Below, piece by piece: positions 4,275 through 8,869 of a DNA stretch of 64,000 bases. The notes beneath the pieces are model-generated. The model did not search any database. It had not been told where the DNA came from and worked only from the letters and a program-made list of their open reading frames with translations. The stretch is from a virus. Within the stretch, counting starts at the first letter, position 1. Each line of letters starts with the position of its first letter. The DNA lies in IMG/VR virus record IMGVR_UViG_3300042868_003730, positions 62,001 to 126,000 of that record; one strand, written 5' to 3'. A program made the translations under genes and the position numbers.

Positions 4275-6053
4275 TCATCCAACCAAATAACGAGATAGTC
4301 TGTTATTGTATGAGACTTCTGGATTCCTGATCGGAGTTTTTACTGACCCAGAAGATCCTTTATTGTTATTGATAATAGTCGTCGGAGAATTATTCAAAAG
4401 AGTCGGAGCAGCTGGCTCTTCTTTCTTATTATTCATCGTCTGGAGATCGTCAGTACTCGCTGCTAATGCACCAGTCTGCGAAACTCTATTTGGCATCGAT
4501 GGTTTCTCAGCATCAGGACCAGCACCAAACAATGAAGCAATTCCCTTTGATGCAGTATCCTTACCAAGTAATCCGAAGGTAAGCCCAGAAGCCGCACTAC
4601 CAGCAGCGGAGGATAGTTTCTCACCAAGAGTTGCATCTCTGCCCTCGATGCCTAGATTTTCACCTGCCTCATTAAAGCCAGAGTATGCATCATAAGCAGC
4701 CATACCTGCCATTGCAAGTGGACCTGCCTTTCCAAGAGCACCCTTTAGGAATCCACCTGCTTTACCAAGACCACCAAGTGCTTTACTTGCCATTCCTGGT
4801 GCCTTCGCAGCACCACCAGCTATAGCCTTACCTGCGCCGAGGACTGGTGCAGCCAGTTTCGCTGCACCACCAAGTAATTTCCCACCAATTCCTGATAAGG
4901 CACCCATCAGCATTCCAGGAAGTCCTTTGAGCAAACTTCCGAAATTACCGAACATATCCATGATGGACTTCAACCATCCACCACCTTCTGCTTCTTTCTT
5001 CTTATCTTCTTTCGGGTCTTGAATCGAAGTAAGCATATTGTCTTTATTCTTAGACTCTAACTTATCTTCTTCTGAAGCAGTGCTTGCTCGAACGAGAGCA
5101 ACCAATTGATCAAGTTGTTTCTCATTAATCTCTGTCAGACTTCCAAGTGCACCTTCAAATACACCCTTTAGGTATTCTGGATCAGCTGTGTTTAATGCTT
5201 TCTTTTCTTCAGGCGATAGAACAGAGATCTCTGACTTAACACCCTCTGCAACTCCAGCAAGAAGATCCTCTGTTTTCTTGCTACCCATTGGCTTCTCGCC
5301 AGCTGAGAAATCAGTTGCTTCTTTCTTGAGATTCTGAGCAGAAACCAGTCTGGCGGTGTCTTCTTCTGAGAGACTACCACCGAATGACTTGGCTTCTTTC
5401 TGCTTTGCTTCTAACTCAGCGATTATTGGATCAGCCTTGGCGATATCTTTATATCTGCGTTCACCTTCAGCTGTAACTCTTTTCATCCCATCCGCATCAC
5501 CTGGTTTACCTCGTAGCTCTCTTCCCTTTTCAGTGAACTCACCGAAGTTAGCAATAAACTCAGCCTTCTTTGCTTTCTTTTCTTTTCTCTGAAGTATAGA
5601 ACCTAGAACAGCACCCTTCAGTGAACCATCATCTCGACCAATACCAGCCATTCCAGCCACACCCTCTAGGCTAAAAGCCTTCTTTACACTGGCAACTTTT
5701 CCTTGAACATATCCAGCAAGACCCTTCTTCTTTTCTTCCTGCTGCCTTTTGTAACCAAACTGCATTGTCTTGGTCAATTCAGAAACTGCTTTGAGTAGTT
5801 TCTTATCTACATCGATAGCATCCTGCTGGACGTCATTCGATTCTTCCATAAGTTTCGCAGAAGCGGAACTATTATCTCTCTCAACTGATGCTTTCGCGGA
5901 AGATGTTGACGACTGTACTGGCTGAGTAACTTCTGGTTGTTGAATAACTTCAGGTGCGGCTTGTTCCTCGGCATTTCTATTATAATTTGCCTGCACTACG
6001 CGCTGACTAAGTTTCATCTTAGTCGCTTTCGTTTTTTGTCTTACCTTAGCCAT
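4275..6053 (-). CDS. gp29: tape measure protein (gp29-like)
   Basis: 592 residues, almost exactly the 590 of T4 gp29, so the tail should be about T4 length. The N-terminus is basic then Gln/Ser-rich, residues ~70-350 are charged helix (many Lys/Glu), and residues ~370-480 are Gly/Ala/Leu-rich and hydrophobic, typical of a tape measure that threads through the tube and can reach membrane. The C-terminus is Asn/Ser-rich. It lies directly downstream of the gp26/gp51-like chaperone pair, the order universal for tape-measure genes. An AAGGG ribosome site lies inside the end of the frameshifted extension. The identity rests on size, composition and position rather than clear motifs. Confidence 0.75.
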   Translation of the reverse strand: MAKVRQKTKATKMKLSQRVVQANYNRNAEEQAAPEVIQQPEVTQPVQSSTSSAKASVERDNSSASAKLMEESNDVQQDAIDVDKKLLKAVSELTKTMQFGYKRQQEEKKKGLAGYVQGKVASVKKAFSLEGVAGMAGIGRDDGSLKGAVLGSILQRKEKKAKKAEFIANFGEFTEKGRELRGKPGDADGMKRVTAEGERRYKDIAKADPIIAELEAKQKEAKSFGGSLSEEDTARLVSAQNLKKEATDFSAGEKPMGSKKTEDLLAGVAEGVKSEISVLSPEEKKALNTADPEYLKGVFEGALGSLTEINEKQLDQLVALVRASTASEEDKLESKNKDNMLTSIQDPKEDKKKEAEGGGWLKSIMDMFGNFGSLLKGLPGMLMGALSGIGGKLLGGAAKLAAPVLGAGKAIAGGAAKAPGMASKALGGLGKAGGFLKGALGKAGPLAMAGMAAYDAYSGFNEAGENLGIEGRDATLGEKLSSAAGSAASGLTFGLLGKDTASKGIASLFGAGPDAEKPSMPNRVSQTGALAASTDDLQTMNNKKEEPAAPTLLNNSPTTIINNNKGSSGSVKTPIRNPEVSYNNRLSRYLVG

Positions 6054-6056
6054 ATG

Positions 6057-6236
6057 TTACCCTTGTTGTTTCTGAGACTTTTGTTTTTCTATTAGCGTGT
6101 TAAGCATCTGAATATAAATCTCTCGCTCATAAGGAAGCATATTGTCAATTTCAGTTAGTGAGTATTTGTGTATTTGCACTAACTGAAAGTTTGTGTCATA
6201 ATGATTGAATAGCGTCTCGTGGGAGAGATTTATTAA
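6057..6236 (-). CDS. gp51-like extension, reached by -1 frameshift from gp26
   Basis: On the minus strand, the -1 frame relative to gp26 is open from the slippery site to a TAA at 6059-6057, giving 59 residues and ending 3 bases before the gp29 start. It has no usable start codon near its 5' end (it opens LINLSHETLFNHY); the first ATG comes late. The end reads YSLTEIDNMLPYEREIYIQM, a pattern (LPxEREIY...ML) I associate with the gp51/tail-chaperone C-terminal segments of T4-like phages. The predicted fusion is 236 + 59 = 295 residues. This is the arrangement of lambda gpG/gpGT: chaperone, frameshifted chaperone, then tape measure. Whether it is truly translated is inference. Confidence 0.65.
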   Translation of the reverse strand, partial: LINLSHETLFNHYDTNFQLVQIHKYSLTEIDNMLPYEREIYIQMLNTLIEKQKSQKQQG

Positions 6237-6943
6237 AAAAAATTGTTCAGACCCTTTACGTGTTTATTATGTTCTACTTTACAAACTGGACAGGTATACT
6301 TTACTGCAATCCTAACAAGTGGCATTGTCTCGAAGAAATCCTCGAGCATCTTGTTCTGTTTGCTAGTCAAACTATCCATGAATGCTTTTAGTTCAGATTC
6401 AGTTTCTTCAGCAACATGGTATACGTCATCTTCGACATAAATAGTTTCCATCGCTGCCAAGACTGCTTTCTGCTTAGCATCTTCCTCAGTTGAATTCTGA
6501 ATCTCAATCAATTCATCCATTGTCGGATATTTCATCAGAACAGTGATTGTATCAGATAGTTTGACCTTATTGCTATGCTCTTCAGGAGTAAACACTTCAA
6601 CTGTTCGTAAGTCAATCTGGATCTTTGCTTTGGCTTCTGGATCCTCACAGGTATCACAGCGGAATACTAACTCGCTGAACTCACCAACGGACTTTGATCG
6701 AATAAAGGTAAACAGATACTCAAGATCGAAACTCGTCATATTCTCAACAAGTTCAGATGGCTCGATACAGTTCTCAACTACTTGTTTCAAAGTAGTCAAC
6801 ATCACTGCTAGGTCTTCTGACTCTTGAGCAGCTAACAGAGCACGTTCTTCTTTTACTCGGAATGGACGATACTTTGCTTTCTTCTTTGTTGATGGAATAG
6901 TAATCGGGTATAGTGGGGTTGGGTTAACTTCAGATAATCTCAT
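6233..6943 (-). CDS. gp26: gp26-like baseplate hub / tail assembly chaperone
   Basis: 236 residues (T4 gp26: 208). Family pattern at the N-terminus: LYPITIPSTKKKAKYRPFRVKEE, then ALLAAQESEDLAVMLTTLKQVV. Cys pairs at CDTC and CPVC suggest a zinc-bound fold like the T4 base-plate protein family (PF12322). It is needed for hub assembly and probably chaperones the tape measure. The ATG overlaps the gp16 stop (ATGA). The gene ends FF-stop on a T8 run that should allow a fraction of ribosomes to continue into the gp51-like frame. Confidence 0.8.
   Translation of the reverse strand: MRLSEVNPTPLYPITIPSTKKKAKYRPFRVKEERALLAAQESEDLAVMLTTLKQVVENCIEPSELVENMTSFDLEYLFTFIRSKSVGEFSELVFRCDTCEDPEAKAKIQIDLRTVEVFTPEEHSNKVKLSDTITVLMKYPTMDELIEIQNSTEEDAKQKAVLAAMETIYVEDDVYHVAEETESELKAFMDSLTSKQNKMLEDFFETMPLVRIAVKYTCPVCKVEHNKHVKGLNNFF
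6236..6257 (-). promoter_or_regulatory. programmed -1 frameshift signal
   Basis: Eight consecutive T on the minus strand (6242-6235) give the in-frame heptamer T TTT TTT (6242-6236), followed immediately by the gp26 stop codon TAA. An AAAGGG (6257-6252) lies 9 bases upstream, matching the Shine-Dalgarno-like stimulator spacing known from bacterial -1 sites such as dnaX. Confidence 0.65.
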
Positions 6944-7350
6944 AGTTTTTTCATCTTCTCCATAATTATTGCATTCATTTCAGAGGTAGTACCAATGAAG
7001 GCTACATTATTAGTTACATTAGCAGTCGGTATATTCTTCTCAGTTGACTTCTCAAGAATCTTTCTTTTCTTCTCATGCACGTCCAGCAATTGAGAATTCA
7101 TATCAGATACTGTCTTCAGCATTGTTGCTAGTACTTCATATGACCTTGGTGTTTCGCTTTGAATGGCAATTTCTAGCGCACTCTCAATGGCTCTGTTACC
7201 GAGGTTGAGAAGTCCTTTGATGTTTGTTCTTGCCAGTTCTGCGTCTGTTGAAACAGTTGAGTCTTTATCATCTTCGGAGATTGTGGGAAGTATAACCCGA
7301 TCCATCGGAACTGGTTCTACATCAAATACCTCGGAAATCTTTTTACTCAT
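6940..7350 (-). CDS. gp16: terminase small subunit (gp16-like)
   Basis: 136 residues (T4: 164). The pattern NIKGLLNLGNRAIESALEIA, then PRSYEVLATMLKTVSDMNSQLLD and NVTNNVAFIGTTSEM is that of the small terminase subunit in cyanophage-type T4-like phages, with a central coiled-coil that oligomerises. It recognises or regulates DNA for packaging with gp17. It is unusual that this gene is about 40 kb from gp17 and on the other strand, between the holin and gp26, with ATGA overlaps on both sides. In T4 the two genes are adjacent. Confidence 0.8.
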   Translation of the reverse strand: MSKKISEVFDVEPVPMDRVILPTISEDDKDSTVSTDAELARTNIKGLLNLGNRAIESALEIAIQSETPRSYEVLATMLKTVSDMNSQLLDVHEKKRKILEKSTEKNIPTANVTNNVAFIGTTSEMNAIIMEKMKKL

Positions 7351-7631
7351 TGTTCTTTAGAAACTGCGTCAGATGCGTTATTTATTCTCGCAATTTTCTC
7401 TTGACCGCGAGTAAATGCCGAGACGCCAAGAATCGCTCCGAATGAGATATGGAATAATCCAGACCCAACCAGAGTTAATGGTTGCCACTGAGAATTGACA
7501 TTACCATTATAAAATGTCTGGATAATTGACCAGAGAATTGGCGCAACAACAAAATCAAATAAACAAATAACCAAATACACAATGGCAGTAATTGGTCGCC
7601 ATTTATTTTGCAACCAAGTTTCTGGTGTCAT
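7347..7631 (-). CDS. holin (3-TM family)
   Basis: 94 residues with KWRPITAIVYLVICLFDFV and PILWSIIQ, then QWQPLTLVGSGLFHISFGAI and LGVSAFTRGQEKI. This is the signature of the 3-TM holin family (PF11351, 'for gene transfer release') that is common in T4-like cyanophages. Two strong hydrophobic segments and one weaker one are visible. It should form membrane lesions that time lysis. It is embedded in the tail operon between gp54 (TAATG overlap) and gp16 (ATGA overlap), so it is expressed with late structural genes; no endolysin gene is next to it. Confidence 0.8.
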   Translation of the reverse strand: MTPETWLQNKWRPITAIVYLVICLFDFVVAPILWSIIQTFYNGNVNSQWQPLTLVGSGLFHISFGAILGVSAFTRGQEKIARINNASDAVSKEQ

Positions 7632-8869
7632 TAGTATTTTCCTCTGGTAACATCGGATTGAAGTTGTGATGCTGCACCGGAAACATCATTACCTCTGGTG
7701 TTATATACACTACCCATTTTACCAACAGAATCAGCGATCTGTTGGCTTCCACCAGGAATACTGTTCATTGAATTGGTCAGACTAGAGAAGATTGATCCAA
7801 CTCCTGATAAGTTCGCACCAATAGCACCAAGATGACCAGGAATACCTGCGACATTTGACACAACAGCAAGTTTGCCACCAATTCCCAATAGATTGGTTTG
7901 TATACCTGCGAATGGTGCCCCAAGTCCCAGAGAACTTGCTGCTGAGTTAATAGCACCAAGTGTATTTGCGATACCGACCGTAGCATTAGTGAGTGCAGCT
8001 AATGGTGCGGTGATGTTGTTGATTCCTTCTCCAAGCCCACCAAGAGCAGCACCAAAATCACTGGAACTCTTTCCAAGAGAAAGAATACCACTACCGAAAG
8101 CAGAAGTATTTGCATTTCCTCCAGGTGCTGTGCTTAACAAAGCATAGGAAGCAGAACAACTTCTTGATGTGTCGGATGCGAAATCTCTGCCGAGGGCAAC
8201 TGCACCACCAGAAAAGTTATTCGAGAATCCTGAACCACTACCAGCTGTTGCGTAGCCGAGATATTCAGCAGAACCATCTTTTGCCAATGCTGCCACACCA
8301 CTCTCTGATTTTTTAGTCGTGAACAGTTCTAGTTTATTGCTAATTTCATTCCCTGCTTCATCCATGGGAATTTGAGTCCAGTATTTGAATACCAGAGATA
8401 CGCGCACTCTGATGATATCTTTATTCTCGAAACCGAAACTAATATCCTGTATTGATTTCGGATATGCCTCAAAGACTCTGGCACAATAAACTATTTTACT
8501 TTCTTTATCAGTTACGATGACATCTAATTGTTTAGTGTAATCTGAATAATATCCTACATTTCTTGTTGTTTTATTTACAACTGCGTTAGACCATTGTTCG
8601 AAGTATTGTTTAACTATCATCTTCCTGTCAGATATAAATGATAGTTCCATACTTGGATATAATGGCATATACGGTACTTCTCTATTTTCACCGAATATTC
8701 TAATATCTGTTGTTGAGTTTGTTAACCCAGGAAGGTTAACGCTGTCGCACATTAAACTAACTTCTTTACCAGTGGAGTCACCAAACACCACATAGTAGTG
8801 CGTTCCTGTGAGCAGTCCTTCAGATTTTACCTTAGAGATAAACTCATTTAATGTTGCCTTTGAATCCAT
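7631..8869 (-). CDS. gp54: baseplate tail-tube initiator (gp54-like)
   Basis: 412 residues (T4 gp54: 320). Residues 1-~165 are a tail-tube-like domain: VSLMCDSVNLPGL, then VPYMPLYPSMELSFISDRKMIVKQYFEQW and CARVFEAYPKSIQDISF, resembling gp19 and gp54. The C-terminal 200 residues are Gly/Ser/Ala/Leu-rich (for example GLGEGINNITAPLAALTNATVG), as in T4 gp54 but longer. It polymerises on the gp48 cap to start the tail tube. It is encoded opposite to gp48. A gp19-type tube paralogue is the alternative, but the extended C-terminus favours gp54. Confidence 0.75.
   Translation of the reverse strand: MDSKATLNEFISKVKSEGLLTGTHYYVVFGDSTGKEVSLMCDSVNLPGLTNSTTDIRIFGENREVPYMPLYPSMELSFISDRKMIVKQYFEQWSNAVVNKTTRNVGYYSDYTKQLDVIVTDKESKIVYCARVFEAYPKSIQDISFGFENKDIIRVRVSLVFKYWTQIPMDEAGNEISNKLELFTTKKSESGVAALAKDGSAEYLGYATAGSGSGFSNNFSGGAVALGRDFASDTSRSCSASYALLSTAPGGNANTSAFGSGILSLGKSSSDFGAALGGLGEGINNITAPLAALTNATVGIANTLGAINSAASSLGLGAPFAGIQTNLLGIGGKLAVVSNVAGIPGHLGAIGANLSGVGSIFSSLTNSMNSIPGGSQQIADSVGKMGSVYNTRGNDVSGAASQLQSDVTRGKY

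Follow-up and report, generated by a model that had tools for sequence, protein, structure and literature searches.

In the window, by which we mean the whole 64-kb stretch of viral DNA analysed here, we identified a gp26-family gene that continues, in the -1 frame, into a gp51-like extension and is followed by a candidate tape measure gene. The 147.9-kb record to which the window belongs, possibly a fragment, holds one T4_baseplate gene and one gp51-type tail. The locus comprises the following features:

6233..6943, minus strand: gene of the gp26 family (236 aa in the zero frame), proposed to encode the short form of the tail assembly chaperone
6252..6257, minus strand: SD-like AAAGGG, proposed to stimulate frameshifting, 9 nt upstream of the heptamer
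6242-6235, minus strand: T8 run, read directly from the sequence
6236..6242, minus strand: slippery heptamer T_TTT_TTT, in register with gp26
6233..6235, minus strand: zero-frame stop TAA, immediately 3' of the heptamer
6057..6236, minus strand: -1 frame extension of 59 codons (6236-6060) with stop TAA (6059-6057), the gp51-like tail
4275..6053, minus strand: next gene, 592 aa, candidate tape measure gene by position and length

The 3' end of gp26 reads GTA AAG GGT CTG AAC AAT TTT TTT TAA TAA on the minus strand, and a shift into the -1 frame at the heptamer is predicted to yield a gp26-tail fusion of 295 aa. The earliest possible start codon in the -1 frame of the window is a GTG at codon 20, with the earliest ATG at codon 34, and the 592-aa gene begins 3 bases past the tail stop, with its ATG at 6053. 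An earlier note on this DNA had drawn attention to the T8 run with a slippery heptamer directly before the stop, to the AAAGGG nine bases upstream, to the 59 open codons with no start at their head, to the end of the -1 frame 3 bases before the next gene and to the 295-residue length of the fusion, and the sequence bears out each of these observations. The T8 run at 6235-6242 is the only run of at least seven A or T in the window, all others reaching at most six, and the gp26 site is the only in-frame T_TTT_TT(T/C) in the window's ORFs of at least 100 aa. Independent IMG/VR contigs (L001-L006) share the T8 run, which rules out a sequencing error in the homopolymer. Elsewhere in the genome, homopolymer runs of A or T above six seem to be avoided.

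As to the neighbouring genes, hhalign aligned the 592-aa protein weakly, over 39 columns, with T4 gp29 (590 aa), at an E value of 0.0037 and a probability of 9%, so the label gp29 that the earlier note gave to this gene is tentative. The gene immediately upstream, which overlaps gp26 by 4 bases, is terminase small subunit-like (phrog_445; 6940-7350, minus strand), an arrangement unlike the gene order of P-SSM2 or KVP40. Additionally, the window encodes a tail tube-like protein of 412 aa (phrog_45; 7631-8869, minus strand), in which the match spans about the first 190 residues and the rest is a long Gly/Ser/Ala-rich extension.

The zero frame of gp26 matches Pfam T4_baseplate (7.3e-53) and phrog_150 (2.5e-56). 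Searches of Pfam and NCBIfam with the -1 frame tail gave no match, and PHROGs gave a match over nearly the full length of the tail to phrog_634, annotated as 'baseplate hub assembly catalyst' (gp51), at 8.1e-22. The gp51-like character of the tail, proposed earlier, is confirmed by this match and by the alignment of the window fusion with T4 gp51, which continues through the junction between the two frames. The AF2 model of the gp26 zero-frame protein has a pLDDT of 88. With this model, Foldseek found no significant match in the PDB, the HK97 gp13 chaperone (2ob9) standing fourth in rank with a weak score (probability 0.30, E 0.79), and a profile search of PDB sequences found no match. The hub assembly chaperones listed for T4 include gp26 and gp51 (PMC3004832), and it is this literature that points to a putative chaperone function for the products of the window locus.

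Relatives were gathered through the similarity of their proteins to gp26 and to the tail, irrespective of the slippery site, and named isolates were added. Among the 72 unique gp26-family loci, 65 have the heptamer U_UUU_UUN (NNT TTT TTN) in register near the gp26 end with the tail in the -1 frame, and in all 65 the zero-frame stop lies 0, 1 or 2 codons past the heptamer. The codon that precedes the two Phe codons has T as its third base in every heptamer locus (65/65), and the first Phe codon is TTT just as uniformly (65/65). The last heptamer codon is TTT in 39 loci, TTC in 25 and TTG in 1, that is, the final base is free. As a control, 14 other conserved two-fold columns in the same gene and loci are 57-82% T. 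The loci are related, so the locus counts are not independent; the naive chance probability of ~10^-21 for the site ignores this relatedness and was set aside in favour of the matched-column comparison. Judged by that comparison, the third-base pattern is what an X_XXY_YYZ -1 heptamer predicts and what amino acid constraint does not. The alignment with related phages that the earlier note had suggested as a check thus returned a conserved slippery run and a constrained codon choice at the heptamer.

The seven loci without the heptamer are gp51 of T4 and of phiAS4, both in-frame fusions, and the distant Cba120, Ds20CZ, Vibrio 1.255.O, K364 and Cygsa01. The earlier note had held that relatives lacking the run and having a separate start codon for the extension would speak against a frameshift. 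Such relatives do occur, but they are confined to the distant branch formed by the Ackermannviridae-like phages and Cygsa01 (loci L095, L100, L104, L106 and L110). There, the -1 tail is kept, ATTTTC or CTTTTT replaces the U6 run, and a TAATG overlap usually stands at the end of the gp26-like ORF; in this branch, the overlap without a U6 run suggests re-initiation. Within this branch, the ATG of Ds20CZ is an ATT in Cba120. Separately, an unannotated tail, with the -1 frame open and similar, is found in Cba120 (L095:3240-3400), Cronobacter phage S13 (L103:3750-3917), Acidovorax phage ACP17 (L102:3717-3874) and Synechococcus phage ACG-2014d (L108:2995-3186).

Upstream of the heptamer, the mean anti-SD pairing energy at the SD-like site is -5.2 kcal/mol, compared with a background of 0.16 (66 loci), and the value of -5.19 exceeds in strength the -4.38 +/- 0.15 obtained under synonymous codon resampling. 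By this measure, the SD-like AGG element is conserved beyond amino-acid constraint, at a fixed distance of 9 nt upstream.

Downstream of the heptamer, we identified a long-range RNA helix, a part of the signal that the earlier note did not contain:

6223..6233, minus strand: 5' arm of the helix (AUAAAUCUCUC), 11 bp with 6114-6124
6114..6124, minus strand: 3' arm of the helix (GAGAGAUUUAU), covarying with the 5' arm in relatives
6150..6187, minus strand: inner hairpin (UUUCAGUUAGU / ACUAACUGAAA) in the loop of the long-range helix

The helix was spotted through codon bias, the initial alignment having missed the 3' arm, and was then tested directly. At tail codon 4, Leu is written CTC in 81% of loci, against a CTC background of 4% of Leu codons, and 88% of loci use GAG for a Glu at the 3' arm, against a background of 23%. 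In the window, the MFE of 6070-6235 is -30.8 kcal/mol, with a z of -3.4 relative to dinucleotide shuffles. Across the heptamer loci, helices with a 5' arm beginning 5-9 nt past the heptamer have an average energy of -16.3 kcal/mol compared with -7.5 kcal/mol for synonymous resamples, which corresponds to a mean z of -4.0 with significance in 57 of the 65 loci; at four control offsets, the mean z is +0.1 to -0.9 and 0-13 of the 65 loci are significant. The helix has two alternative registers across relatives. Alignment column 9 is C with G at column 114 or 118 in 30 of the 33 C loci, and U with A at both 114 and 118 in 18 of the 19 U loci. This concordance (47/51 loci), which involves eight parsimony changes at column 9 on the tree, was reached 0/20000 times in a tree-based null. 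RNAalifold, run on -14..+115 and on a 132-nt tail set, returned no consensus fold, which we attribute to the helix closing a ~90-nt loop in two alternative registers.

The form of the downstream structure differs among lineages. The inner hairpin was found in the closest relatives alone (folds of L001, L003, L004 and L006). A local hairpin occupies the place of the helix in P-SSM2, S-PM2, ACG-2014f, MC09 and OLIVR5, and in the first four of these a possible gp51 start codon lies in the hairpin or at its edge. Additionally, one IMG/VR locus (L018) has another perfect 10-bp pairing, GCCUCGCGCA / UGCGCGAGGC, between tail nt 8-17 and 168-177, much further downstream, which is possibly a third arrangement of the stimulator.

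The -1 frame itself is under purifying selection in the heptamer loci, with a dN/dS of 0.044 for tail codons 1-18 and 0.157 for the remainder of the tail, both figures being rough, with synonymous sites near saturation. Codons 1-18, which lie past the zero-frame stop and, in most loci, ahead of any usable start, are the most constrained part. The window and most relatives have no ATG ahead of codon 10, and usually none ahead of codon 19 or later; eight other loci have an ATG at tail codon 3-4. Tail codon 2 is mostly Ile and varies among ATA, ATT and ATC, and is therefore kept as Ile and not as a start codon. On these comparative grounds, the -1 frame is a protein under selection that is probably translated from the slip onward.

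These observations bear directly on the reading that survives best among the alternatives, namely that the tail is a separate small gp51 protein re-initiated after the gp26 stop. This is how the tail is annotated in GenBank for P-SSM2, KVP40, AF3, phiM19 and others, and both the eight loci with an early ATG and the TAATG overlap in the heptamer-less Ackermannviridae-like phages and Cygsa01 are in line with it. However, re-initiation would not account for the strongest conservation falling on codons 1-18, ahead of which most loci offer no start, nor for an isoleucine, rather than a start codon, being kept at codon 2. Furthermore, the SD-like element suits the heptamer and not the tail ATGs, several of which sit in a hairpin, and the third-base constraint in gp26 is left unexplained. 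We therefore regard re-initiation as improbable. Still less probable is slippage of the RNA polymerase on the T run, which would add or drop an mRNA base and give the fusion without any ribosomal slip: T8 in the window and at least T7 at the site in 39 of the 65 loci would allow it, but 25 of the 65 have T6C, which is short for that process, and the SD and the downstream RNA helix are stimulators that act on ribosomes. The idea that the site is due to chance, to a sequencing error or to gene decay, for which we found nothing in favour, is refuted by the comparative data, the site being repeated in dozens of independent contigs and named isolates and the tail being under purifying selection, and its probability is negligible.

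Given the X_XXY_YYZ third-base constraint, the conserved start-less tail, the SD-like element and the covarying helix, we conclude that the gp26 mRNA very probably carries a tripartite signal for programmed -1 ribosomal frameshifting, made up of an SD element, a heptamer and a downstream structure. The parts of the signal, their conservation and the selection on the -1 frame come from sequence analysis. The -1 frameshift reading of the earlier note is upheld by the codon constraint at the heptamer and the selection on the tail, and by the stimulators on either side of the slip site. Several points count against a frameshift: U_UUU_UUU is less prone to shift than A_AAA_AAG in E. coli (PMC5009743), RNAalifold returned no consensus fold, the loci are related, and the heptamer is missing in the distant branch.

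The slippage itself, its rate and the functions of both products are what we infer, as follows. Most ribosomes would stop at the UAA and release the 236-aa short chaperone. A minority, held by the SD-like AAAGGG behind and the RNA helix that begins about 2-8 nt ahead, would slip back one base on U_UUU_UUU and go on to make the 295-aa protein that ends in the gp51 tail. If lambda gpG/gpGT is taken as the model, the short form may coat the tape measure protein, and the tail of the long form may recruit tail tube or baseplate parts.

The same two-part protein organization can be recognized in T4. T4 gp51 is a T4_baseplate member over residues 1-201 (3.9e-52; T4 gp26, 8.8e-64; Pfam), and it matches phrog_634 (1.2e-23) and phrog_150 end to end, from 3 to 248. 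As judged from these matches, T4 gp51 joins the gp26-like domain and the tail in a single frame, and T4 gp26 consists of the domain and lacks the tail. In T4 and Aeromonas phiAS4, gp26 and gp51 are two genes and the heptamer is absent; two other Straboviridae, KVP40 and S13, possess a single gene with a UUUUUUC site. T4 gene 26 ends with GGC CTC AAA GAG TTC TTT GAG TTA CTA TAA, encoding GLKEFFELL; it retains the GLxxFF residues but has GAG TTC TTT where the heptamer would be. In a tree of the shared domain, the two gp26 and two gp51 proteins are adjacent and apart from the single-gene phages, with moderate support. The earlier note had suggested that T4 gp26 and gp51 may be a split form of the frameshift system. 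Their homology and the common tail agree with this, but duplication plus in-frame fusion describes the T4 genes better than a split. In the lineage of T4, the frameshift has probably given way to duplication and in-frame fusion, the direction of the change being our inference.

Taking the frameshift signal and the T4 comparison jointly, we consider it likely that most T4-like lineages, apart from T4 and its relatives infecting Aeromonas, carry the three-part signal with a stimulator encoded in the tail, and that duplication replaced the frameshift in T4. In the window clade, the covarying helix would then join extension codons 2-5 to codons 38-41 over ~90 nt in two registers, and in the cyanophage isolates, the local hairpin at equal spacing would bury the would-be gp51 start codon.

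The locus offers a signal that is compact and testable and includes a long-range RNA stimulator; dozens of related genomes show it in full, down to the conserved RNA fold downstream. A single gene with an intact signal is found in marine T4-like phages, KVP40, S13 and several alphaproteobacterial phages, and the site is lost in T4 gene 26, so that the replacement of the frameshift by duplication can be traced step by step. In addition, hundreds of genes annotated as 'gp51' in cyanophages probably represent the C-terminal part of a fusion, mis-annotated as a separate gene.

Frameshifts in lambda gpG/gpGT and related tail assembly chaperones were reportedly treated by Xu, Hendrix and Duda in 2004. 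As in lambda gpG/gpGT, the window has one gene ahead of the candidate tape measure gene, which would give a short and a rarer -1 extended form, and the short ORF carries a slippery heptamer at its 3' end. The window family differs from lambda at the sequence level and in its U_UUU_UUN heptamer, SD-like element, long helix and T4-type myovirus setting. T4 has long been regarded as the exception to the G-T frameshift and is listed as such by Atkins et al. 2016 (PMC5009743). The window gene is homologous to T4 gp26 and gp51, with gp26 as the short form and gp51 as the long form carrying the same tail, but where T4 has two genes and no heptamer, the window combines a single gene with a frameshift site. 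In T4-like phages, the TAC genes were identified by Vladimirov, Gautam and Davidson 2022, as cited in PMC10885494 (PRFect) and PMC12846349; according to these citing papers, that work covers polyT slippery sites in these genes and the two-gene state of some T4-like phages. It shares its subject, and as far as these citations go probably its genes, with the window locus, and since it is cited for the idea, the basic notion of a gp26/gp51 frameshift is not new. The TAC of Pseudomonas phage Adele (Vandenendeviridae/Andersonviridae; PMC12846349) likewise has a -1 extension and a conserved GTTTTT run before the tape measure gene; the window belongs to another phage family with another slip motif, and the passages on Adele in that paper report no stimulators. 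The open literature that we searched gave no report of the SD-like element and covarying helix at the gp26/gp51 site, which is weak evidence of novelty. The E. coli dnaX -1 frameshift signal consists of an internal SD, an A_AAA_AAG heptamer and a downstream RNA structure. The window signal has the same three-part layout, but whereas dnaX is a cellular gene with A_AAA_AAG, the phage structure is, depending on the lineage, a long-range helix or a local hairpin.
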